From a virus: a stretch of 24,668 nt of DNA. This document shows positions 1,999 to 23,432 of the stretch, piece by piece. The position numbers and the translations under genes were made by a program. The notes under the pieces were generated by a model. That model was not told the origin of the DNA. It saw nothing but the letters and a program-made list of their open reading frames with translations, and ran no database searches. The DNA is taken from IMG/VR virus record IMGVR_UViG_3300020174_000071, positions 1 through 24,668 of that record. One strand, given 5' to 3'. The number at the start of each line of letters is the position of its first letter. Position 1 is the stretch's first letter.

Positions 1999-2967
1999 AT
2001 GGCTATTTCAAAAATTGGTGCGAACAGCGCACTCAAAGGTTACTTAGCCAGACGATCAGCTGAGAGAGAGGCTGAGCTTGATAGGACAGCTAGACGTGAA
2101 GAGTTCATGATGAACCTTCTTGAAAGAAGAAAGCAGTACCTATTGCCTGAGCTACTTAAAAGGTTTGATGGTATCGCTGAGATGCAGAAAGCTACTAGTT
2201 CTCGTTTAGCTAGGGCAAAGACCCATCAGTTTACTAAAGAAGCAGCAGCCTACTTGGAGTCAACTGGTCAACTAGAAGGTATCTTAGACAGGCTTGATAA
2301 ACTTGTAGAAAACCCAGAGGAGGGTGTCTCAACAAATGCTATCAGAATGTTTAATGAGAAGCTGGTTGAAAATGTTCCAAAAGAAAAGCTAGCCTCTGCT
2401 ATAAACTACTCTATGGAGATTGGTGCTATGCAGCGTCCAAGCCTAGATGGTTTTATGTCAGTGCTTACAGCTTCAACTGATGAAGAGCTAATGACTGCTA
2501 TGAGTGAGATGTCACCTGCACCTATGCCAACAGGAGCGGCTACTAATCCCTTAGCAATTAACCTTCTAAGTTTTACAGAGTTGTCCCCAGAGAAAAGACA
2601 AGCAGCTAGAAAAGCTATTGTTAATGAGCTAGCCCCTTTGCTTGATGGTACTGTAAACGCAGAAACTAACACTGTCACTTGGAAAGACCCTGAGAATGCC
2701 TCAAGAATTGCTAACAATGCGTTTGAGAGGTTCTTAGTTCTACGTAATGACCCCTTCTATTCAGGCTCTGAGACAGAACTTATTGGTGAGATAGGTTCTA
2801 GAATTTATCAGATGAAACAAAATAAACAAAGTTTGTTTGAAATAGCTAGCAACCCTACCTTTGACTTTAACTACACACCTTCAACAACCCCTCCCCCTGG
2901 AAGTGATGATGAAGAAGAAAGTATAGACGTTATTGAGAATAACTATTTAGGCGCAGGTATGGGGTAA
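1999..2967 (+). CDS. Putative internal virion protein, unknown
   Basis: A 322-residue protein starting 2 bases after the previous stop. It is mostly charged helix. The first 60 residues are rich in Arg and Glu (RRSAEREAELDRTARR) and look coiled-coil prone. The C-terminal 30 residues contain a proline run and the acidic stretch DDEEES. No signal peptide, membrane segment or catalytic motif is visible. Position and size resemble the middle-sized internal core proteins encoded just before the largest ejection protein in T7-like phages. I infer a virion or ejection role from context only. Confidence 0.5.
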   Translation: MAISKIGANSALKGYLARRSAEREAELDRTARREEFMMNLLERRKQYLLPELLKRFDGIAEMQKATSSRLARAKTHQFTKEAAAYLESTGQLEGILDRLDKLVENPEEGVSTNAIRMFNEKLVENVPKEKLASAINYSMEIGAMQRPSLDGFMSVLTASTDEELMTAMSEMSPAPMPTGAATNPLAINLLSFTELSPEKRQAARKAIVNELAPLLDGTVNAETNTVTWKDPENASRIANNAFERFLVLRNDPFYSGSETELIGEIGSRIYQMKQNKQSLFEIASNPTFDFNYTPSTTPPPGSDDEEESIDVIENNYLGAGMG

Positions 2968-2971
2968 GAGT

Positions 2972-5900
2972 ATGGCTTCTTATGTAGATAAAGCACCTGA
3001 GTCAGCTTTCCTCGATCTCACTGAGGATGATGATTTCAAGAAAGACTTAGTACAGTTTTTCTCTGGTGGTCGTTACCAGTACAACAAAGATGAAATGAGG
3101 GAGATGGGCTATGAGGGTATGGCCCGTCAGTTCGTTGAGCACATGCGTTATCAGAATGCTAACGAGGTCTCAGCCGCTAGGGATTACAGCTACGTAACCA
3201 ACAAGGACTTTGACCAACGAGGTAAAGATGCCTTTGGTCGTCTTATGCAAGCCTATGATACATCGAGGGAGGCTGGCACAGGCTTCTGGAATGGTGTAGG
3301 TGATTACGCTGAGGCGGTACTATTCGCCCCATCAACATACATTGGCTTGGGGAGCTTTGGTTTAAGTAAGCTTGGTGCAAAGGCTGCATCTAAAGCAACA
3401 CAACTTATGCTTAGAAAGAAGCTGAAGGATAGCCTAGCTAAGAACGTAGTTGAAAAAGGTCTGAAGAGAAACATCTACAATCAAGCCTTGAAGGAGGCGG
3501 GTGTTGGTGCAGCATCAGGTGCTGTTATTGGTGGTGGTCAAGCCGCCCTGCAGGGTGAGACCCGTGAAGATGTTATTGATGACTACGAGTACACAACAAA
3601 AGACTTCTTGTTTGATGCTACAGTAGGTGGTGTGGCAGAGGCTACTGTTGGTGGTGCCCTGGGGTATGCCTCAGGTATGATTGGTCGTTCCAGTAACATA
3701 AAGGTTGAGGATGCATTAAAGCAAAGACAAGAAGTTATCTCTGAAGACCTGAAACAAAAGGCTCAGATTGCTAAGGACACTTTGAAAAACGCTACAGCTG
3801 AGCAGAAGAAAGAAGCTATGGGTCGTATCGCTGACCTAGACGAGGTCTTGTCTGCAAGGGCAGGATCAAAGAGTGCTAAGCTAAAAGATAGCCTAGACCC
3901 TGAAAGAGTAGCAAAAGGTAAGGCTATTCTCAGAGGTATCACTAATGATTCCTTTGACCCTGAGTTTACTAGCGGCCTATCTGCTAGCACCATGCGCAGG
4001 ATTGCAGCGGCTAGCATTGAGCTAATGCAGAACGACAGACTTAACATCAAAGATAACAAAAGAATAACTGAGTCTGTAGCTTTTGCTATGAGAGACCCAG
4101 AGACAGCTACAGAAGTCTTTCCTATTCTAGAAGAGATAAGAGAAAAGTATGGCTTGTCTAAAGATGAGTTCTCTATGATCTACTTGTCTGAAGTTTCTCG
4201 TGCTGGTCAGACTCTTGGATACGCTAGTGCCATTAAGAGAGGGGCTAACTTGGCGGGTATTGATGACCTGTTCTCTAAAGGTGCATCCTCTTTTACAAGT
4301 GAAGAAGCTGCAATCATTTCAGCTAATGCTATGAAGAATGCAGGTAAGGGCACCAGCTTCCTACAAGATTTGGATGCTATGCGTATTGCATTCATGACTT
4401 CACAGCCAGCTACAACAATGCGTAACCTTAGAAACTCTGGTATCCTTATCGCTACTGATATGCTGGATGAAGTCAACAGGTCTTTGTATAAAGGTCTGAC
4501 AGGAGACCTTGCTGCAATCAAGGATGTCATACCAAACATGACAGCAATCCTTAGAGGCTACACTACAAACAACGCTGAAGCTAAGATCATTCGTAACATC
4601 CTATTAGAGGAAGCCCCAGAGCAGTATCGTAACTTGTTCAATGAAGCTTCCCGTATTGATGTAGGCATAGGCAGCAACAATGCTATGGGTAAAGCAGCCA
4701 GAGTAGTGAACATCTTCAACTCTGCAACAGACTCTGTTCTAAAAGAAGGGATGTTCTTTGGTAGTTTGGATAGACAGTTCAGAGAGCGGGGCGGGGAAAG
4801 CCTAAAGGACTGGTTAGCTTCTAACAGAACACTAGACAATTTACCTGAGGGTGTATCCCTCGACAAAGCTATGATTGATGCTCAGCGTCTTACAATGCAA
4901 AGAACCTTTAGGGAGTCTGACTCCACGATAGCTAAAGGAACTAAAGCTCTTGTAGCTATGAATAGAAAACTTCCCTTCATTATCTCTGAAGGTTTTGGTG
5001 TTCCATTTCCTAGGTATGTGGGCAACCACTTGCAGATGGTAGCAGAGTATACGCCCATTGTTGGCGAGCTTATGCAAAGGTCTAACTTTGCTACTTCCAC
5101 AGACGAGGCAACTCGAATGGGGAGACAGATGACAGGGGCCATGCTTCTAGTTGGTGGTTACACACTAGCTCAAATGAGACAAGGTGAAGTAGACTATGGT
5201 TCTTTTGTAACAGAGATGAACTCACAAGAGGACATGAAACCATACGTTGGTTCTGCTTTGGCACACCTCTACGCTGGGGATATGGCGTGGAGGGCTAACA
5301 ACGGATTGCCTGTTAAGATTACAGGTGAAGATTTACAGGCTGTCTTTGGTGGTATCCCAGACCTTAGCTTTGACTTTGAATTTGGAGCAGGTATCTTGGA
5401 AGCGATAGGGGTAAACCCTACTACAGGTAAAGAGATGGTTGCCTCAACTGAAAGACTAGAAAAAGAGATTGGAAATATCGCTTCTACTTTCTTGATGCCA
5501 ACCACTATTGCTAGGGATATCTACGGACAGTTTAACAACGAGTCAGCTGGCACTCCTTTCGTTAGAGACTTGGCTATATCAAGCCAGTTGTCTCCAAGAA
5601 AAGGTGAAGGGTCTGAGGGGATACTGGTAGGACAGGCAACACGTATGCTACCTGATGCTCCATTCCTGCAGTACACTCAATCCTTCGATGGTAGCTATGA
5701 TATGCCGTACTACAAAATCACTAACCCAGTTAGGATTGGTTCTGTTGATCCTTTGCTGAAACAAATCAGTGGTGCTGCAGCTGAGCCACCCTTGACTGAG
5801 TTAGAAAGACAGATGAGTAGGTACAACCTAAAGGATTGGCAGCTATACAACACAAGGACTGTGCCTAATGCTGGACTAGACTTTGCAGTCAGAGCACACC

Positions 5901-17893: not shown

Positions 17894-18094
17894 CTAGTGG
17901 AGGCTTCTCCTCTCCATGTCCTTGCGCCATGCTGCATAGTCCTCTCTCTTGTAGCCATTGAACTCCATGAAATCTTGCATGATCATCACCTCGGTCAAGA
18001 TATTCTCTACAAAGGTTGCAAGGCTGTCAGGATTATCTAAAAGATGATCCACTAGTTCTTCTACTTCTATTTCTTTATCTTCAAAGTCATCCAT
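17894..18094 (-). CDS. Small acidic protein, unknown
   Basis: 66 residues from ATG 18094 (MDDFEDKEIEVEEL), which has AAGG 8 bases upstream. A longer frame continues to an ATG at 18211 or a TTG at 18223. Its extra 40 codons cross a set of inverted repeats shared with the control region at 22994-23083, so I treat that stretch as regulatory rather than coding. The protein is strongly acidic at its N-terminus, then helical (H-L-L-D-N-P-D-S-L-A), and ends basic. Function unknown. Confidence 0.55.
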   Translation of the reverse strand: MDDFEDKEIEVEELVDHLLDNPDSLATFVENILTEVMIMQDFMEFNGYKREDYAAWRKDMERRSLH

Positions 18095-18096
18095 AG

Positions 18097-18198
18097 GTGA
18101 TACCTTAAGTTTTAACTTATAGTTTTTATTAACTACAAGAATAATAGAACTCCTAGTTATACTTGTAGTTATACTATTAGCAATACTTAAGGTATCAC
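18097..18198. repeat. Nested inverted repeats upstream of a small leftward gene
   Basis: The outer arms are a perfect 14-bp inverted repeat, GTGATACCTTAAGT (18097-18110) and ACTTAAGGTATCAC (18185-18198). The inner arms are TAACTACAAG (18130-18139) and CTTGTAGTTA (18162-18171). The same two box types, again as inverted pairs, occur at 22994-23083. The region is very AT-rich and ends 3 bases before the gene starting at 18094. It may be operators for a phage DNA-binding protein or an RNA hairpin controlling that gene. Confidence 0.75.
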
Positions 18199-18227
18199 GT
18201 AGAAAGTTCATAGTCTTTTTCAACCCC

Positions 18228-18305
18228 TCAATCAGAAGAAATATAAAATAGTAGGTAAAACAAGATGTTTACTACTATTGCTGCAACGAACAACCAGTCT
18301 ATCAT
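18228..18305 (-). CDS. 25-residue single-helix membrane micropeptide
   Basis: The frame reads M-I-D-W-L-F-V-A-A-I-V-V-N-I then L-F-Y-L-L-F-Y-I-S-S-D and stops at TGA. About 19 of 25 residues are hydrophobic, forming one clear transmembrane helix. It starts 5 bases after the end of the preceding gene. The best ribosome site, AAAGGG, is about 12 bases upstream and so weak. It could be a phage membrane modulator such as a superinfection-exclusion or channel-forming peptide. Function is inference, and existence as a gene is only moderately supported. Confidence 0.45.
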   Translation of the reverse strand: MIDWLFVAAIVVNILFYLLFYISSD

Positions 18306-18309
18306 TTAC

Positions 18310-18444
18310 TTAAAGTTTCCCTTTAACTTCTAGTCGTAACTCCTTGAAACATTGCGCTAAAAGGCTAGCTACATCCTTGGGTGTTTGGTTAGATAGCAAA
18401 CAGATTAGTCTGTCATATTGATCGTAAACATTTATTTGGTACAT
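18310..18444 (-). CDS. 44-residue small protein, unknown
   Basis: ATG 18444 with AAGGA about 6 bases upstream, overlapping the preceding small gene by 13 bases. Sequence begins M-Y-Q-I-N-V-Y-D-Q-Y-D-R-L and continues with a helix P-K-D-V-A-S-L-L-A-Q-C-F-K-E-L. The beta-strand then helix layout is compact for its size. No family recognised. Confidence 0.55.
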   Translation of the reverse strand: MYQINVYDQYDRLICLLSNQTPKDVASLLAQCFKELRLEVKGKL

Positions 18445-18554
18445 GTCTGTTCCTTTGCGTATTTTACAGCGATATTTCTGTTGTGGGATATGATGATAAC
18501 TTTACCATCATCACCATACACCACCCATTTTCTTTTTCGTTTGACTATCGTCAT
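18432..18554 (-). CDS. 40-residue basic protein, unknown
   Basis: Starts as TAATG on the stop of the 119-residue gene upstream. Sequence M-T-I-V-K-R-K-R-K-W-V-V-Y-G-D-D-G then V-I-I-I-S-H-N-R. The basic N-terminus followed by two predicted strands could bind nucleic acid. Overlap on both sides supports it as a coupled gene of this operon. No family recognised. Confidence 0.55.
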   Translation of the reverse strand: MTIVKRKRKWVVYGDDGKVIIISHNRNIAVKYAKEQTCTK

Positions 18555-18913
18555 TAATCCAAGCGGCTATCAGCATGGGCATCAAACCCAAATGCTCGAA
18601 GAACTTTAGCTGCACCTTGGGCACCAGCCTCTTTACATCCTATGTTCTGGAAGCCACAGTTCGCTGGGTTCCACCAGTTGAAACGCTTACCTGTGTAGTC
18701 TAGGTCTAGCCCCATCTCACGCAGGAACTTACGCTCAGCACGGCCCTGCTTGGTATTGCCTTTGTGCTTTGGATAGATGTTGACCCAAGCAAAGCCACAG
18801 TCGAATGCATCCTGACCATCTAGGTTCTGCTCGATGTACTTATCACAGTCTACCTTGGCTTGCGCCCATGCTAGGTCACGAATTTCTTGAGGTGTTGCGT
18901 TAATGTTTTCCAT
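18554..18913 (-). CDS. Conserved phage hypothetical protein
   Basis: 119 residues with GGAG 10 bases before the ATG. The pattern is F-D-C-G-F-A-W-V-N-I-Y-P, then R-K-F-L-R-E-M-G-L, W-W-N-P and a C-terminal K-E-A-G-A-Q-G-A-A-K-V-L-R-A-F-G-F-D-A and S-R-L-D. I recognise this as a family recurring in phages of many proteobacteria, without known function. The C-terminal helix with K-E-A-G-A and the closing S-R-L-D are its conserved marks. It is one of few proteins in this block above 100 residues, and likely cytoplasmic. Confidence 0.7.
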   Translation of the reverse strand: MENINATPQEIRDLAWAQAKVDCDKYIEQNLDGQDAFDCGFAWVNIYPKHKGNTKQGRAERKFLREMGLDLDYTGKRFNWWNPANCGFQNIGCKEAGAQGAAKVLRAFGFDAHADSRLD

Positions 18914-18914
18914 A

Positions 18915-19166
18915 TTAGTATTCTCCTTTTGTGTGTGTATCTAACCTAGATATCGCTGTTTCATAATTCAAGGGGTGCTTCCAATTTTTTCTTGGTTCAT
19001 CTTGGTAGTTCCTATTGCGCACATGTTCTCGTGCTGTGGTGTAGGATATCCCCCAGTATCGACAGGCTTGGGCTATTGATAAGAACTCTACCCCGCCTAG
19101 CTTACACTTGTAGCCTGCCTGTACTTGATCTGGCTCGACGTATCGAATGCGTTGGTTATACTTCAT
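18915..19166 (-). CDS. Putative helix-turn-helix (NUMOD1-like) DNA-binding protein
   Basis: 83 residues. The core G-V-E-F-L-S-I-A-Q-A-C-R-Y-W-G-I-S-Y-T-T-A-R-E-H-V-R resembles the helix-turn-helix modules found as repeats in homing endonucleases (NUMOD1 style) and in phage regulators: a short strand, then an A-x-x-W-G-I-S turn and a recognition helix. It has no nuclease domain. It starts inside the end of the preceding 54-residue gene (overlap of 11 bases). It is a candidate for the protein that reads the repeats of the control region, but this is inference. Confidence 0.6.
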   Translation of the reverse strand: MKYNQRIRYVEPDQVQAGYKCKLGGVEFLSIAQACRYWGISYTTAREHVRNRNYQDEPRKNWKHPLNYETAISRLDTHTKGEY

Positions 19167-19320
19167 TGTGTTTTTCCACGTCAGGTGTAAATGAGACTAC
19201 AAGATCAAAAGCAAAGCTACCATCTGTTTCGTATCCCATATCAAGTAACTTTTCGTGGATCATTTCTGCCAAGAAATCAAACTCTTGGTTAGTAAAGTCT
19301 GCCAGTGTTACTGTTTTCAT
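19156..19320 (-). CDS. 54-residue small acidic protein, unknown
   Basis: ATG 19320 follows the upstream stop as TGATG. It begins M-K-T-V-T-L-A-D-F-T-N-Q-E-F-D-F-L and contains A-E-M-I-H-E-K-L-L-D-M-G-Y. A helix then strand layout with net negative charge. It overlaps the helix-turn-helix gene by 11 bases. No family recognised. Confidence 0.6.
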   Translation of the reverse strand: MKTVTLADFTNQEFDFLAEMIHEKLLDMGYETDGSFAFDLVVSFTPDVEKHNEV

Positions 19321-19481
19321 CATGCTACTCCCTTATAAGGTTCATCTATTACGTCTACAATCTCTGTCAGTTGGATTGCGTCCTCATAAACAAAATCATA
19401 GTCCATGTTTTCCATAATCTCTGACAGGTCAAAGGTGTCACTATATTCTAGTTTTACTGTTACAAATACTGTCTTAGTCAT
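19320..19481 (-). CDS. 53-residue very acidic protein, unknown
   Basis: ATG 19481 chosen for its ATGA overlap with the upstream stop and AAGGAG 9 bases before it. Two strands (K-T-V-F-V-T-V-K-L-E-Y) are followed by D/E-rich helices. There are 13 acidic against 3 basic residues. Such charge could mimic DNA, a theme in phage inhibitors. That is speculation; no family recognised. Confidence 0.6.
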   Translation of the reverse strand: MTKTVFVTVKLEYSDTFDLSEIMENMDYDFVYEDAIQLTEIVDVIDEPYKGVA

Positions 19482-19678
19482 AACGCTGTCTCCTTGTCTG
19501 CCCACTCTGGTGCTTTACAAATACCTTCCTCTATTAAGCGTGTTGCTGTTCTCCCGTACCACCCTTGTAGATTCCACACTAGGGCTGTGTCAATAAGGTG
19601 TTGCCATGCCCCTACTTCTTCGTCGTAGTCAGCAGGGACTAGCTGTTCACAAATCATGATTGCATCTTGTGTGTTCAT
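19478..19678 (-). CDS. Small phage protein with QHLIDTALVWNLQGWYGR motif
   Basis: 66 residues from ATG 19678 (ATGA overlap with the upstream stop). The central motif W-Q-H-L-I-D-T-A-L-V-W-N-L-Q-G-W-Y-G-R followed by A-T-R-L-I-E-E-G-x-C is a hallmark of a small, widespread phage family. I recall it as one of the recently numbered DUFs (DUF7417, from memory). Its members have no known function but are usually in early-gene blocks, as here. Confidence 0.7.
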   Translation of the reverse strand: MNTQDAIMICEQLVPADYDEEVGAWQHLIDTALVWNLQGWYGRTATRLIEEGICKAPEWADKETAL

Positions 19679-19872
19679 TGTTCTACATCCTCGTCCACAA
19701 TATAAATATAACCTTCCTCGACGATCTGATAAGGGCATCCAAAATATCCATCCATCACATGGACAGCTTGCATGAATGCTTTCAACTCTGACTCAGTAGC
19801 AAAGCAATATGTCTCCGCTACATCACCATTTTCCAACAGGTCTTCGCCCCATAGAATACTAACCTTATACAT
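19675..19872 (-). CDS. 65-residue acidic protein, unknown
   Basis: Begins M-Y-K-V-S-I-L-W-G-E-D-L-L-E-N-G and ends Y-I-Y-I-V-D-E-D-V-E-Q. It has 14 acidic and 2 basic residues and a mixed strand/helix pattern (S-E-L-K-A-F-M-Q-A-V in the middle). It overlaps both neighbours by 4-8 bases. The ATG lies inside the upstream gene's last codons. The S-E-x-E-L-x-A-F-M-x-A style helix is common in small phage proteins of unknown role. Confidence 0.62.
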   Translation of the reverse strand: MYKVSILWGEDLLENGDVAETYCFATESELKAFMQAVHVMDGYFGCPYQIVEEGYIYIVDEDVEQ

Positions 19873-20005
19873 CGCTTACATCCTCGTCGTCGTCATACTC
19901 TTGGATATTTCTAAACGATACCCAAATATTTTCGTTGTCGTCTTGGACCACTTCCCAAGATGTCGGGCAAGTGTTTAACCATTCAAAGAAGTCCTCTCTA
20001 ATCAT
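19865..20005 (-). CDS. 46-residue very acidic protein, unknown
   Basis: ATG 20005 with AGAGG about 9 bases upstream. It starts M-I-R-E-D-F-F-E-W-L-N-T-C-P-T-S-W and ends in an Asp/Glu cluster (Y-D-D-D-E-D-V-S-D-V). It has 14 acidic and 2 basic residues in 46. Proteins starting with a helix and the W-L-N-T-C-P pattern occur in many phages (from memory), of unknown function. It overlaps the next gene by 8 bases. Confidence 0.6.
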   Translation of the reverse strand: MIREDFFEWLNTCPTSWEVVQDDNENIWVSFRNIQEYDDDEDVSDV

Positions 20006-20020
20006 AACTCTATCCTCTTG

Positions 20021-20236
20021 TTATGCCTCTATTGATAGAATAGCCCTCTTGATACCATAATAAGACCATTTGATACCGTCGGGGGTGTAGCTACCACGCA
20101 AGCGGTTACGCATTTCTTTTGCAGCCTCTTCGTAGCCAATCATAGTGATCAACCCATATGCCATAGTGTATAAGTCTTCATCATTGTGAATCCACAAAGC
20201 CATGTTGCGTTCACGTTCATCTATTGTGATATACAT
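20021..20236 (-). CDS. 71-residue small protein, unknown
   Basis: The start forms TAATG with the upstream stop and has GAGG upstream. It contains W-I-H-N-D-E-D-L-Y-T-M-A-Y-G, a helix E-E-A-A-K-E-M-R-N-R-L, and G-I-K-W-S-Y-Y-G-I-K-R-A-I. The latter pattern suggests a small alpha-rich domain. No family recognised. It is part of the translationally coupled small-gene array. Confidence 0.6.
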   Translation of the reverse strand: MYITIDERERNMALWIHNDEDLYTMAYGLITMIGYEEAAKEMRNRLRGSYTPDGIKWSYYGIKRAILSIEA

Positions 20237-20469
20237 TAGTGTGTTCCTCTCATATCTTCGTCCACAATATAGGAATTGATTGTTGTTTCGATCAGGTCAT
20301 GCAGGGAATTGAAACGATCCTGCCCATCGTCTGTGTAAGTTGTGCAGCATGTGCCACGCACATAAAGGTCTTGGGGTGCTGTGATTGTGCCATGATAAAG
20401 AGCATCGAGCATCTCACCCGCTAACACTGCGATCAGTTCTTTCTTGTCTGTGATATCTAGGCGTTCCAT
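20236..20469 (-). CDS. 77-residue small acidic protein, unknown
   Basis: Starts at ATG 20469 (a GTG at 20472 is also possible), with GGAG 9 bases upstream. Helix K-K-E-L-I-A-V-L-A-G-E-M-L-D-A-L, then a Cys pair (G-T-C-C-T-T) and D-L-I-E-T-T-I-N-S-Y-I. Stop shares a base with the following ATG. No family recognised. Confidence 0.6.
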   Translation of the reverse strand: MERLDITDKKELIAVLAGEMLDALYHGTITAPQDLYVRGTCCTTYTDDGQDRFNSLHDLIETTINSYIVDEDMRGTH

Positions 20470-20660
20470 CACGCTACACTCCCGTTAAGTATTACACACA
20501 GTTGACGTACACCATTGGATTGGACGGTGTGCAATTCTACATCCACACGTCCATGTGGTGTCTCTGCGTATCTGTCAACAAACTCTTGATGTGTCACCTC
20601 TTGCGTATCTAGGTCATCCAAAGCATCAACAAAGAACCTCACATTAATATCTTTTAGCAT
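20469..20660 (-). CDS. 63-residue small acidic protein, unknown
   Basis: Begins M-L-K-D-I-N-V-R-F-F-V-D-A-L-D-D-L-D and ends in strands (V-E-L-H-T-V-Q, Q-L-C-V-I-L-N-G). It overlaps the upstream gene by 7 bases. GAGGA lies about 9 bases before the ATG, within that gene. Predicted alpha/beta. No family recognised. Confidence 0.6.
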   Translation of the reverse strand: MLKDINVRFFVDALDDLDTQEVTHQEFVDRYAETPHGRVDVELHTVQSNGVRQLCVILNGSVA

Positions 20661-20848
20661 TGCTCTACATCCTCGTCTGTTACACCCATATCTTCGATAA
20701 ACTGTAGCACCTCGTCAAGGTCTGCACTCTTGCGGTAATATTGCCACATGTGATCTGACACCATATCAGTCATGGTATCCATATCTATAGCATCAACCCA
20801 CAACATCACGGCTAGTTCTAGTTTGTTTTCTGTATTGGTATCCATCAT
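20654..20848 (-). CDS. 64-residue extremely acidic protein, unknown
   Basis: ATG 20848 (a second ATG follows at once), GGAG 9 bases upstream, just overlapping the previous gene's end. It has 17 acidic and 3 basic residues, net about -14, with Met- and Asp-rich helices (D-A-I-D-M-D-T-M-T-D-M-V-S-D-H-M). Such composition resembles DNA-mimic inhibitors encoded by phages against restriction, CRISPR or host polymerase. No family recognised; function is speculation. Confidence 0.62.
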   Translation of the reverse strand: MMDTNTENKLELAVMLWVDAIDMDTMTDMVSDHMWQYYRKSADLDEVLQFIEDMGVTDEDVEQC

Positions 20849-20849
20849 G

Positions 20850-21176
20850 TTAAAAGGCTCCAAACTCTATACCAGAGGCGATAGTCTCACCTTCATTGGA
20901 TATTGTACCATCTGCCATGTCTACGATGTAGTGACCATTGTCCCATTCTTCTTTGTACTTTGTGACACCTAGTGATAAGCCACCGTCCATCTCTTCATGG
21001 TATGCACCTATCAAACGTGCCATTGCATAACTTGCATTCATCTTGCGCATGTTGCGTGCTGTGTCCCGCACCACACCAACCACACTGTCGGGATCGCCCA
21101 GCCAATGAATGTAGATGTAGCATGCTGCACTGCTTCCATGTGTGTCTTTCACTTCTATTGTTGCTCTGTTTCCCAT
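20850..21176 (-). CDS. Conserved phage hypothetical protein (MGNRA family)
   Basis: 108 residues. It starts M-G-N-R-A-T-I-E-V, then a strand with Y-I-Y-I-H-W-L-G-D and a helix V-V-R-D-T-A-R-N-M-R. A second half reads A-R-L-I-G-A-Y-H-E, L-S-L-G-V and G-H-Y-I-V-D. I recognise the M-G-N-R-A start and the IHWLG-like strand as a recurrent phage family of unknown function. AAAGGA lies 8 bases upstream, inside the preceding gene, which it overlaps by 22 bases. Confidence 0.68.
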   Translation of the reverse strand: MGNRATIEVKDTHGSSAACYIYIHWLGDPDSVVGVVRDTARNMRKMNASYAMARLIGAYHEEMDGGLSLGVTKYKEEWDNGHYIVDMADGTISNEGETIASGIEFGAF

Positions 21177-21430
21177 TTTAAAATCCTTTCTATTTCCTGT
21201 TCTGCTAGTGCATCTTGTGCGGCCTCGTAGTGAGCAACCACATATTCAGCATATGATAAATCTTTGGCGTATTCTTGCATCTGTTGATTGTAGATTGCTA
21301 GGTCAGTTGATACCCAAGATGGTCGGACACCTCGCCCATATTGATTGATCAGGCTGTTGATCTGGCGTTCTTTGTAGGCAACACGGCCTCGCATTGTCTC
21401 AACTTGTTCGAGTGCCTCGTTATATGTCAT
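21155..21430 (-). CDS. 91-residue helical protein, unknown
   Basis: ATG 21430 chosen for GAGAGGAA 7 bases upstream. Long heptad-bearing helices: N-E-A-L-E-Q-V-E-T-M-R-G-R-V-A-Y-K, then A-I-Y-N-Q-Q-M-Q-E-Y-A-K-D and Y-E-A-A-Q-D-A-L-A-E-Q-E. It is probably a coiled-coil hairpin or oligomer. No family recognised. Confidence 0.62.
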   Translation of the reverse strand: MTYNEALEQVETMRGRVAYKERQINSLINQYGRGVRPSWVSTDLAIYNQQMQEYAKDLSYAEYVVAHYEAAQDALAEQEIERILKWETEQQ

Positions 21431-21446
21431 TTCTATTCCTCTCATT

Positions 21447-21521
21447 TTATCTTGTCTCAATTAACCATGCGATCACATAACAACAGATCAACACGCCCAG
21501 TAGAAAGTATGGTAAAGCCAT
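21447..21521 (-). CDS. 24-residue membrane micropeptide
   Basis: Starts as TGATG on the stop of the upstream gene, with GAGGA 9 bases before the ATG, and stops at TAA. Sequence M-A-L-P-Y-F-L-L-G-V-L-I then C-C-Y-V-I-A-W-L-I-E-T-R: one transmembrane helix of about 18 residues with a charged C-terminus. The ribosome site and coupling are as good as for its larger neighbours, so I judge it a real gene. It may alter the host membrane early in infection; no family recognised. Confidence 0.55.
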   Translation of the reverse strand: MALPYFLLGVLICCYVIAWLIETR

Positions 21522-21739
21522 CAGTTTATTTCCTCAACATCTGTCCAATAGAATGAGGCCATCTTTTTTGTGTGGACGTTATAGATAGGCTGCAACCAGT
21601 GGTTTACCTGTGCCTCAGTTGGCTTGCGTAGTTGCCCATTTACTTTACGCTTTTCACCTGCGTTTGTCTTGAATGTAACCGTGCAGAAACGAGAACCACG
21701 GGCTTTGATGATATCTTTAACAGTTGTTTTATTAAGCAT
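21521..21739 (-). CDS. Small beta-rich phage protein (WYL/SH3-like barrel)
   Basis: 72 residues from ATG 21739, chosen because GAGAGGAA lies about 7 bases upstream. The pattern T-V-K-D-I-I-K-A-R-G-S-R-F-C-T-V-T-F-K-T-N-A-G, then K-V-N-G-Q-L-R-K, and Y-W-T-D-V-E-E-I at the end matches a common phage family with a small beta barrel. Its members have strand-turn-strand with G-x-R and V-N-G-R marks and are often compared with WYL domains. Possibly a nucleic-acid or ligand binder; function is not established. Confidence 0.65.
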   Translation of the reverse strand: MLNKTTVKDIIKARGSRFCTVTFKTNAGEKRKVNGQLRKPTEAQVNHWLQPIYNVHTKKMASFYWTDVEEIN

Positions 21740-21771
21740 TGTTTCTTTCCTCTCATTTGATTGTTTTGGGC

Positions 21772-22353
21772 TTATACGCCCCAGATACGCTTCCATGTTA
21801 CCCATGTTACAGCTTGCATTTGATAGGCTGTTATGCCCTCTTTAAGTGCTGCATCTGCATACGCTTGTTGCAATTCAATACGTGCTTTTTTGCCAATGTT
21901 TGGAACCTCTTGCAATACTCTGCGTTCACTATTGGCGATACACCAAGCGTGACCATCAATCACACAAACATTTTCGCCATGAATGCAGCGATAAAAGTCA
22001 GATATTTTTGGGCCGTTCAAGATTGTAAGCACTTGGTCATAGTCACCCACGCTTTCCAAGATTGCCCACGCCTTTTCCCACATCTTTTTATAGGTGCTTG
22101 CCTTTACATCCTCATAATAGCCGCCGCTAACAAAAGTTTCGCAGAATAGCCTTGCATCCTTGATGTTTTGTTCCCAGTCGTTTGTTGGCGACAGTGCAGC
22201 GATAACACCCACGACGATATGCAAAGGTAGTCCTGTATCATCTGCGATATCCCACGCCTCTGATTTAGCGTCGGCGTACCAGTTTAAACCGTGGGCAATC
22301 TCTGACTGTGATGCTCGGTCATAAACTGCTAAGATGTTTTTGATCATGTTCAT
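21772..22353 (-). CDS. DUF7178-like phage protein, possible HhH-glycosylase-like fold
   Basis: 193 residues from ATG 22353, chosen because GAGGA sits about 9 bases upstream; longer in-frame starts lack this. Conserved pieces are M-I-K-N-I-L-A-V-Y-D-R-A-S, G-V-I-A-A-L-S-P-T-N-D-W-E-Q-N, K-I-S-D-F-Y, V-C-V-I-D-G-H-A-W, and C-terminal M-Q-A-V-T-W-V-T-W-K-R. I recall this phage family as DUF7178 (from memory), of unknown function. The A-A-L-S-P-x-N helix and I-D-x-H strand-helix echo helix-hairpin-helix DNA glycosylases (VDTHV region), which I infer only weakly. It is the first gene of the leftward operon, so probably made earliest. Confidence 0.7.
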   Translation of the reverse strand: MNMIKNILAVYDRASQSEIAHGLNWYADAKSEAWDIADDTGLPLHIVVGVIAALSPTNDWEQNIKDARLFCETFVSGGYYEDVKASTYKKMWEKAWAILESVGDYDQVLTILNGPKISDFYRCIHGENVCVIDGHAWCIANSERRVLQEVPNIGKKARIELQQAYADAALKEGITAYQMQAVTWVTWKRIWGV

Positions 22354-22462
22354 TTTTGTTTTCCTCATTGTTTTTCGTTTTGTTAAAATAGAGATATCGC
22401 TATTGAATGAATCTTTCAATACCTAATCTGATTTTTTTTGGTAACATAATGTTACAGACTGA

Positions 22463-22477
22463 AACAATTCGTGAGGT
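22463..22477 (+). repeat. AACA[A/T]TTCGTGAGGT repeat, copy 1
   Basis: A 15-base element repeated with one mismatch at 22852-22866. The copies are 389 bases apart and flank the iteron block on both sides. Immediately left of this copy is a perfect palindrome GTAACAT-A-ATGTTAC (22441-22455). Possible protein-binding sites. Confidence 0.6.
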
Positions 22478-22487
22478 CTATTTATAT

Positions 22488-22528
22488 ATTATAATGAGTA
22501 AGGGATAGGGATTCATTTTGTGATCACA
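22488..22528 (-). promoter_or_regulatory. Probable leftward promoter with upstream palindrome
   Basis: On the - strand a TATAAT box (22493-22488) lies about 135 bases upstream of the first leftward gene. No good -35 hexamer is visible at 17 bases. Instead the palindrome TGTGATCACA (22519-22528) is centred about 42 bases upstream of the predicted start, a typical class II activator position. Leftward early transcription could therefore depend on an activator. The start point is inferred, not seen. Confidence 0.45.
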
Positions 22529-22572
22529 GTTTTATCTGGTGGTTTGTAGTTGCTTTTCTCTTTGTGATCACA
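22519..22572. repeat. Duplicated TGTGATCACA palindrome
   Basis: The perfect 10-bp palindrome occurs at 22519-22528 and 22563-22572 (extended TTTGTGATCACAAA at 22561-22574), 44 bases apart, about four helical turns. A related AGTGATCAG site is near 22923. Paired palindromes in phase suggest dimer operators that could loop. The half-site resembles TGTGA of CRP/FNR-type sites, though the spacing differs from the CRP consensus. Confidence 0.65.
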
Positions 22573-22583
22573 AATTCCCAAAT

Positions 22584-22684
22584 GTTTAAGACTAAACGAA
22601 TCTCAACCAGAAAATAGTTTAATGTTAAACAATCTCTAAAAACTAATAGTTTAATACTAAACTAATAATGATTTAATGTTAAAC
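22584..22684. repeat. Four helically phased 14-bp near-palindromic iterons
   Basis: Copies: GTTTAAGACTAAAC (22584), GTTTAATGTTAAAC (22617), GTTTAATACTAAAC (22649), ATTTAATGTTAAAC (22671). Start-to-start distances are 33, 32 and 22 bases, about 3, 3 and 2 turns of DNA, so all face the same side of the helix. The surrounding AT-rich sequence, divergent gene layout and neighbouring GC hairpins fit an iteron-type replication origin or a multi-site operator. Origin function is inference. Confidence 0.75.
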
Positions 22685-22714
22685 ATACTGTTTTAGTCAG
22701 GTATTTAACCGTCT

Positions 22715-22744
22715 GTCGGCCACCGACTACCCACCAGGCGTGGG
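22715..22744. other. Two adjacent GC-rich hairpins in the control region
   Basis: GTCGG-CCA-CCGAC (22715-22727) and CCCAC-CAGGC-GTGGG (22730-22744) stand next to each other in a GC-rich island (22711-22760) inside otherwise AT-rich DNA. Neither is followed by a T-run, so they are not standard terminators. They could be recognised as single-stranded hairpins, for example as primase or initiator sites near an origin. Confidence 0.55.
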
Positions 22745-22851
22745 CCAGGGCGGGGGTGTACGTTCTATATATACCCGTAATGACAGCGGGGAGGTGATTT
22801 CACTTGTTAACCACTTTTCGTATACAATGGTTACCAATGTTTCAAACCTGT

Positions 22852-22866
22852 AACATTTCGTGAGGT
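22852..22866 (+). repeat. AACA[A/T]TTCGTGAGGT repeat, copy 2
   Basis: Second copy of the element at 22463-22477, differing at one base. Here it follows a TGTAACA box (22849-22855), as the first copy follows the palindrome containing TGTTAC. The pairing of both sequence elements at both sites suggests a duplicated composite site. Confidence 0.6.
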
Positions 22867-22902
22867 ACGTACAAAAGCGTCCCCCCTAAGAAGAGGAGGA
22901 GT

Positions 22903-22919
22903 TGTAACACTCTGTAACA
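22903..22919 (+). repeat. TGTAACA direct repeat pair
   Basis: TGTAACA occurs at 22903-22909 and 22913-22919, one helical turn apart, and again at 22849-22855. The pair sits 32 bases upstream of the -35 box of the rightward promoter, an activator-like position. Possible binding site; nothing more can be seen. Confidence 0.45.
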
Positions 22920-22950
22920 AAAAGTGATCAGATTGTAGCAGTTTTAGGGG

Positions 22951-22978
22951 TTGACTTGGCGGGTATTTCCTATATAAT
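22951..22978 (+). promoter_or_regulatory. Rightward sigma70-type promoter
   Basis: TTGACT (22951-22956), a 16-base spacer and TATAAT (22973-22978) make a near-consensus host promoter, reading into the gene at 23157 and the lysis cassette. The predicted start is near 22985, so the shared inverted repeats at 22994-23083 would lie in the 5' leader of this transcript. No phage RNA polymerase is seen in the window, consistent with use of host polymerase. Confidence 0.8.
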
Positions 22979-22993
22979 TATACTGTAAGTATT

Positions 22994-23083
22994 ACTTAAG
23001 GTATTAACTACAAGCTATACTTATATTTCTATACCTTTAATTAGATAATACTTGTAGTTAAACCTAAAGTATTACCTTAGGTA
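22994..23083. repeat. Inverted repeats in the rightward leader, shared with 18097-18198
   Basis: Left arm 22994-23014 (ACTTAAGGTA then TTAACTACAAG) pairs imperfectly with the right arm 23051-23070 (CTTGTAGTTAA then ACCTAAAGT). The inner 11-bp pair TTAACTACAAG/CTTGTAGTTAA is perfect with a 36-base spacer. TACCTTAGGTA follows at 23073-23083. The same boxes in inverted pairs occur at 18097-18198. Downstream of the promoter they could form an RNA hairpin or act as repressor operators. Confidence 0.75.
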
Positions 23084-23126
23084 CTCCTTAATCCCCCCTT
23101 TTTTGTAGTTTTTTGTTGACAGAACA

Positions 23127-23152
23127 ACAACTATAGGTACAACTATAGGCAC
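23127..23152 (+). repeat. ACAACTATAGG[T/C]AC direct repeat
   Basis: Two 14-base copies, period 12, end 4 bases before the ATG at 23157. The second copy supplies the only Shine-Dalgarno-like AGG (8 bases before the ATG). It may be a repressor site over the ribosome-binding region or a slipped duplication. The remainder of 23084-23126 is a C-run, T-runs and the segment TTGTTGACAGAACAACAA with partial dyad symmetry. Confidence 0.5.
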
Positions 23153-23156
23153 TTTA

Positions 23157-23432
23157 ATGGCTTCCTCTAGAACCAAATATTACAGATCAGATAAAGTCTT
23201 AGAAGAATTTTACTTGTCACTAGCTAAAGGTGACGAAAAGAAATTACGAAGAGTACATATCCCCCACAGTTCAGTCTTCTATGCTCGTGAAGCATACTAC
23301 CAGTATTCTGGAGAGTGGATATCCTTAGACAGAATGGAACGGAGTATGTACCTAGAAGGTATGCTTAAAGCATATGATGTACTTGAACCAGAGAGGGAAA
23401 GAGAATGGGAGAAAGAGCACAAACAGTCCTAG
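23157..23432 (+). CDS. Small phage protein before the lysis cassette, unknown
   Basis: 91 residues, first gene of the rightward unit. Pattern R-S-D-K-V-L-E-E-F-Y-L-S-L-A-K-G, then H-I-P-H-S-S-V-F-Y-A-R-E-A-Y, L-D-R-M-E-R-S-M-Y-L-E-G-M-L and a charged tail. I recall relatives with H-I-P-H-x-x-x-Y-Y-A-R and R-x-x-Y-L-E-G-L in marine phages, next to lysis genes, of unknown role. A regulatory or packaging-accessory role is possible. Its end overlaps the holin gene by 28 bases. Confidence 0.68.
   Translation: MASSRTKYYRSDKVLEEFYLSLAKGDEKKLRRVHIPHSSVFYAREAYYQYSGEWISLDRMERSMYLEGMLKAYDVLEPEREREWEKEHKQS

Follow-up and report, generated by a model that had tools for sequence, protein, structure and literature searches.

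Paired arrays of quasi-palindromic boxes at two promoters of HMO-2011-type roseophages as candidate operators for one phage regulator

Introduction

HMO-2011-type phages and cobaviruses are reported to be widespread in the sea. Phage T7 times its gene expression by its own RNA polymerase. According to a report on cobaviruses, these phages have no RNA polymerase gene (PMC6918029), so that something else must time the host polymerase. In the parts of the literature covered here, the way in which early, middle and late genes are separated in HMO-2011-type phages and cobaviruses appears to be undescribed. A first-pass annotation of one viral fragment pointed to the same module of four inverted-repeat boxes at two distant control points, and proposed that one phage regulator or one RNA-structure switch coordinates both. 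Are the two sites a common control element, and are they read as DNA or as RNA?

The window, by which we mean the entire analysed stretch of 24.7 kb (24,668 nucleotides of IMG/VR record IMGVR_UViG_3300020174_000071), is a linear fragment of an HMO-2011-type roseophage with gene content related to this group, and its nearest isolates are CRP-13, CRP-345, CRP-9 and CRP-1. CRP-9 and CRP-13 are described as having HMO-2011-type particle genes together with a replication module of the Cobavirus type (PMC8528129). In the window, early genes run leftward and lysis and packaging genes rightward, both from an intergenic region located at roughly 22.4-23.1 kb. We refer to the box-bearing locus in the early operon as element A and to that of the late operon as element B.

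The intergenic region carries further features. A G+C-rich block at 22720-22800 has similar blocks at the same intergenic place in CRP-13, L039, HMO-2011 and CRP-1. It is reminiscent of the 5' part of the cobavirus direct terminal repeat, a conserved and G+C-rich stretch, so that the virion genome end may lie at this block; the cobavirus paper describes direct terminal repeats together with a terminator between the arms (PMC6775973). About four repeats of the form GTTTAANNTTAAAC occupy 22583-22685 and are also found in CRP-13 (L006), and two palindromes of the TTTGTGATCACAAA type at 22517-22574 recur in CRP-13 and partly in CRP-345.

The boxes in the window

All boxes lie where the first-pass annotation had placed them. 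The exact word CTTGTAGTTA occurs at four sites in the 24.7 kb, 18130(-), 18162(+), 23005(-) and 23051(+), and with up to one mismatch it has 9 sites against 2.25 expected, a number reached in 0 of 100 shuffles. The word ACTTAAGGTA is found at 18101(-), 18185(+) and 22994(+), and with one mismatch at 23073(-). The predicted excess over shuffled sequence was therefore borne out for CTTGTAGTTA, which is clearly over-represented, but not for ACTTAAGGTA, whose count by itself is ordinary (matched in 18 of 100 shuffles). Three exact 11-mers are common to both loci: TACTTAAGGTA (18184, 22993), TTAACTACAAG (18129, 23004) and TACTTGTAGTT (18160, 23049). At the first locus the outer arms do form a perfect 14-bp inverted repeat (18098-18111 / 18185-18198), and arms of 20 bp are 90% matched.

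The description as a four-box module captured real boxes but was too narrow, because roughly six or seven quasi-palindromic boxes are present per locus, with steps of 12 bp between many of them. The four boxes are the conspicuous portion of an element that is larger and conserved. Likewise, the same outer boxes are present at both loci, but their relative directions are opposed, with TACCTTAAGT...ACTTAAGGTA at A and ACTTAAGGTA...TACCTTAGGT at B, a discrepancy that is harmless since each box is nearly palindromic. When strict TACTNNNAGTA boxes with at most one mismatch were counted, the window reached at most 3 per 120 bp and its shuffles at most 2; the case for the window rests on the shared words and on its relatives.

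Promoters and genes at the two elements

The late operon begins with the sigma70-like promoter P1 (22951..22978, + strand; TTGACT, 16 bp, TATAAT), which matches 11 of 12 consensus positions, and 12 of 12 in many relatives. Element B (22981..23083, +) follows with boxes at 22981-22991, 22993-23003, 23004-23014, 23049-23059, 23061-23071 and 23073-23083. The first of them begins 3 bp past the -10 hexamer of P1, and the corresponding distance is 0-3 bp in the elements scored. A second promoter-like site, P2, lies further on (23116..23143, +; TTGACA, 16 bp, TACAAC), and many relatives have TTGAC(A/T)-16-TA(C/T)AAC at the corresponding position. Next comes the first late gene (23157..23432, +), encoding a conserved protein of 91 aa with no known fold, whose predicted structure (pLDDT 84) has no PDB match. 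Using the product of this gene, we retrieved the loci of relatives from IMG/VR, and their order is that of the window: P1 (usually TTGACA-16/17-TATAAT), a box-filled leader, P2 (TTGACA-16-TACAAC) and the first late gene. SIO1 (L097) has a P1 region near 8.2-9.4 kb, and its P1 with the first 20 transcribed bases (TATAATAGTCTTAACAAGTCTCCCCTGC) is repeated at about 37400-37480 before another late gene.

Element A (18098..18198, - strand) has boxes at 18184-18194, 18172-18182, 18160-18170, 18148-18158, 18131-18141, 18114-18124 and 18101-18111. Its probable promoter (18196..18223, -) consists of TTGAAA (18218-18223), 16 bp and a weak -10, TACGTG (18196-18201); like P1, it was assigned solely by consensus match. 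In 7 of 8 lineages, a TTGA(A/C) stands upstream of A with the spacing of a promoter. The first gene after A (17894..18094, -) encodes a 66-aa acidic protein that reached no Pfam family at threshold; most lineages with an A carry a homologue downstream of it, but none was detected in L013-L015. The gene after A varies between phages, but the place of A is constant, with the small early genes on one side and the replication genes on the other. Just upstream of A, 18225-18305 (-) encodes a tiny predicted membrane peptide (MIDWLFVAAIVVNILFYLLFYISSD), and similar ones precede A in CRP-13 and CRP-9.

Conservation of the arrays

Conservation of the boxes in relatives proved to be one of architecture and not of literal words. 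The exact words were discarded as a general element, because an IMG/VR scan returned only the near-identical sibling contig L003 and two chance matches in coding sequence. Every TACT-type relative with enough sequence has two clusters of quasi-palindromes of about 11 bp (TACTNNNAGTA type), usually 12-13 bp apart. With a cluster defined as at least 4 boxes per 120 bp, two clusters were counted per genome or contig in CRP-13, CRP-9, L013, L019, L024 and L031, where dinucleotide shuffles averaged 0-0.01. The partner of B, a second cluster roughly 5 kb away within the early operon, was located in L013, L014, L015, L019, L023, L024, L031, CRP-13 and CRP-9, and the cobavirus CRP-4 also has both A and B. 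Across 21 elements with 117 boxes, the commonest spacing, 12 or 13 bp, accounts for 49 of 96 intervals. CRP-1, CRP-345 and HMO-2011 have a box-like B leader and no clear counterpart of A, and a k-mer scan of these three, L037 and L039 gave no convincing second array. In L050, a plausible A-type element at 2940-3000, upstream of an integrase-like gene, has the words CCTAAGTAT and ACTTAAGTA in common with B of L050.

The spelling of the box changes with the lineage, being TACTNNNAGTA in CRP-13-like phages, CACTTAAGTG in HMO-2011, CCTTTAAGTAT in CRP-4, AACTTAAAGTT in L037 and TACTTAAGTA in L050, and it changes at A and B together. Sharing of 8-mers between A and B was 0.19 within one phage against 0.10 between phages (exact permutation test across seven lineages, p 0.002; over k of 7-10 the p value was 0.002-0.005), where the p values serve as guides since the lineages compared are related. 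Within the sequence available, the best match to B outside B was A in all seven lineages. The proposal of one regulator or switch for both sites thus found support in so far as each phage seems to have a single recognition system of its own. Two more details concern the boxes as units: the close relatives L020 and L021 differ in box number by one 12-bp unit, and the word TACTGTTAGTA occurs twice inside one arm of A in L013.

The elements are also rich in A+T (71-85% against 55-59% in the surrounding sequence), as would be expected if A and B were transcription-primed replication origins, at which a strong promoter and an AT-rich boxed region start leading strands, similarly to the primary origin of T7. 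The cumulative skew turns near B, and T7-like replication was inferred for cobaviruses (PMC6775973). The skew here tracks gene direction, however, and is uninformative; the position of A at a gene-class boundary with variable neighbouring genes suits transcription control, and no initiator gene was identified. We regard replication origins as quite unlikely.

DNA words or RNA hairpins

Since both elements consist of inverted arms, they could act in the transcript. The first 100-150 nt or so of the middle and late transcripts would then be structured leaders, in which a long hairpin acts on elongation, RNA stability or translation, for instance as an antitermination RNA that needs no protein, as a site for RNase III or as a 5' shield. 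In line with the RNA-structure switch considered by the first-pass annotation, both RNAs of the window fold into long hairpins (A, -39.4 kcal/mol, z -6.6; B, z -3.4), and the A and B elements in general form long hairpins more stable than their shuffles (z mostly -2 to -6.6). Native arms also match each other better than swapped arms do (p 0.028 for A and 0.0003 for B), and permuting the order of the boxes lowers stability (p 0.0003). Some changes are paired on both sides, as in the arms of B (CTGTTAG/CTAACAG, CTGTTGG/CCAACAG, CTATTAG/CTAATAG) and at the inner-box centres of A (AAC/GTT, AAT/ATT, ACA/TGT), and the apical stems of A elements differ in sequence and remain paired.

These observations kept the RNA switch under consideration, but other results weakened it. 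A transcribed hairpin should favour G-T over A-C mispairs, and the arms contain 26 G-T and 30 A-C, which argues against pairing of the sense RNA as the main constraint. The reverse complement folds equally well or better in most B elements, and flipping single boxes had no significant effect on stability (p 0.17). Hairpins arise in any case as a by-product of palindrome arrays, and the words repeated within an arm are left unexplained by RNA folding. We therefore rejected a sense-RNA hairpin as the sole explanation for want of a wobble bias, and a known RNA family because A and B had no Rfam match up to an E of 1. Structured leaders for both operons seem to us possible but doubtful.

What a leader maintained as RNA may look like can be seen in the related group L040-L053, which speaks for such leaders among these phages. 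The region upstream of the first late gene is box-free in L040, L041, L043, L047, L049 and L052 of this group, and the leader has a stem of GGTAYGTG with CRCRTACC-type sequence, with changes on both sides and G-U pairs in the sense strand. From its pattern of substitutions, this stem has the appearance of a genuine RNA structure.

Arms that match with no wobble bias are the trace expected of correction at the level of DNA. Template switching during replication (quasi-palindrome correction) could keep inverted arms matched at AT-rich promoters, and the words would then have little function. This leaves unexplained why each phage has common words at A and B, which lie about 5 kb from each other, and why the arrays have a fixed place behind promoters, and we consider it very improbable as the whole account.

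Candidate regulators

Operator arrays call for a protein that reads the words. CRP-1, CRP-4, CRP-9 and CRP-13 share the host strain FZCC0023 and differ in their box words; we accordingly rejected a host factor as the reader, and the word specificity is probably phage-encoded. The helix-turn-helix protein at 18915-19166, favoured by the first-pass annotation as the common regulator, was found only in the sibling contig and is unlikely to have this role. No early protein was found that tracks the box word, and the HTH-like early proteins are lineage-specific. One of these, gp06 of CRP-13 (L088:1991-2320), shows similarity to winged-helix regulators of the MarR type (NCBIfam E 2.3e-5, a score that falls below the cut-off), but it is limited to L099 and L019, and L013 and L023 share the word without gp06. 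CRP-1 and CRP-345 have an unrelated early protein (gp07 in CRP-345) that reads as winged-helix by eye only. The first late gene product, the model of which matched nothing in the PDB, was dismissed as the reader because it is conserved in HMO-type phages and not detected in the box-bearing CRP-4. The 66-aa acidic protein after A has no DNA-binding signature. No ribbon-helix-helix (RHH) protein came up when early proteins from the window, CRP-13 and CRP-4 were scanned against Pfam, although small divergent proteins can escape such scans.

Discussion

With a probability of about one half, we interpret A and B as DNA operator arrays for one putative phage regulator of middle and late promoters. 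Palindromes at regular steps, words repeated within an arm, a copy-number change of one unit and words matched at two sites fit a DNA-binding factor, and both elements are located at promoter sequences. In the simplest mode, tandem boxes that span and directly trail the points where host RNA polymerase would begin transcription from two promoters, the promoter of A in the early operon before the replication genes and P1 of the lysis and packaging operon, would be bound by a phage-encoded factor that covers the start sites or blocks early elongation until it is removed. Reading of the same word at A and B would place middle and late operons under a common timing signal. We infer that the promoters are active and that a protein, encoded by the phage, binds the boxes and represses rather than activates. 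Counting against operator arrays are the failure to find a regulator gene that tracks the word, the weak promoter of A and the phages that have no clear A. Moreover, the arms match better than the box words predict, and their mirror arrangement is a real extra beyond the needs of operators, for which reason we hold operator arrays at no more than the above probability. The mirror arrangement may stem from pairing of the RNA, from correction by template switching or from a symmetric nucleoprotein complex. A and B might instead be a dual-mode DNA/RNA switch of marine podoviruses lacking an RNA polymerase, unlike described phage operators, in which the word is rewritten in each lineage in both copies and both arms together, through pairing or a symmetric nucleoprotein structure in addition to the boxes; this we judge unlikely.

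Among known systems, the operator arrays of RHH repressors (MetJ met boxes, Arc, Omega type) consist of short palindromic boxes placed head to tail at a promoter with near-constant spacing, and have degenerate copies in variable number. A and B resemble them in their tandem palindromic boxes, degenerate copies, variable copy number, near-constant spacing and location at promoters. Here, however, the boxes measure 11 bp, follow each other in steps of 12-13 bp and are split into two mirror groups on either side of an AT-rich centre, and no RHH gene was identified. The put RNAs of HK022 are antitermination leaders just downstream of the early promoters, which occur in two copies, form hairpins of conserved RNA structure and work with the host polymerase; A and B resemble them in copy number, place behind promoters and hairpin formation, but have no sense-RNA wobble signature and repeat DNA words. 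The T7 primary replication origin likewise comprises tandem promoters and an AT-rich stretch; A and B differ in being two sites with box arrays and host-type promoters. Cluster A mycobacteriophages have stoperators, asymmetric sites of about 13 bp that are dispersed over the genome and recognised by a phage regulator (PMC9283540, PMC6550527). They share with A and B lineage-specific DNA words at several genome places, but the boxes here are palindromic and form two dense clusters behind promoters. Extended start-associated sequences of cluster K, with 17-bp arms and a 13-bp start-site repeat at many genes, are likewise imperfect inverted repeats upstream of genes, with a conserved place and a consensus that shifts between subclusters (PMC3203893), whereas A and B are arrays of boxes, each with a promoter, at the heads of two operons. 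The first-pass annotation knew of no such element in these phages, and this agrees with the literature searched: a text search of RCA-phage papers gave no mention of promoters or palindromes, and nothing like A or B is described where the papers checked treat transcription, repeats and intergenic sequence.

The finding is a concrete, conserved candidate for a control site at both gene-class boundaries. As the words are rewritten in a matched manner at two distant sites, the cognate regulator can be hunted across the one-host phages CRP-1, CRP-4, CRP-9 and CRP-13.
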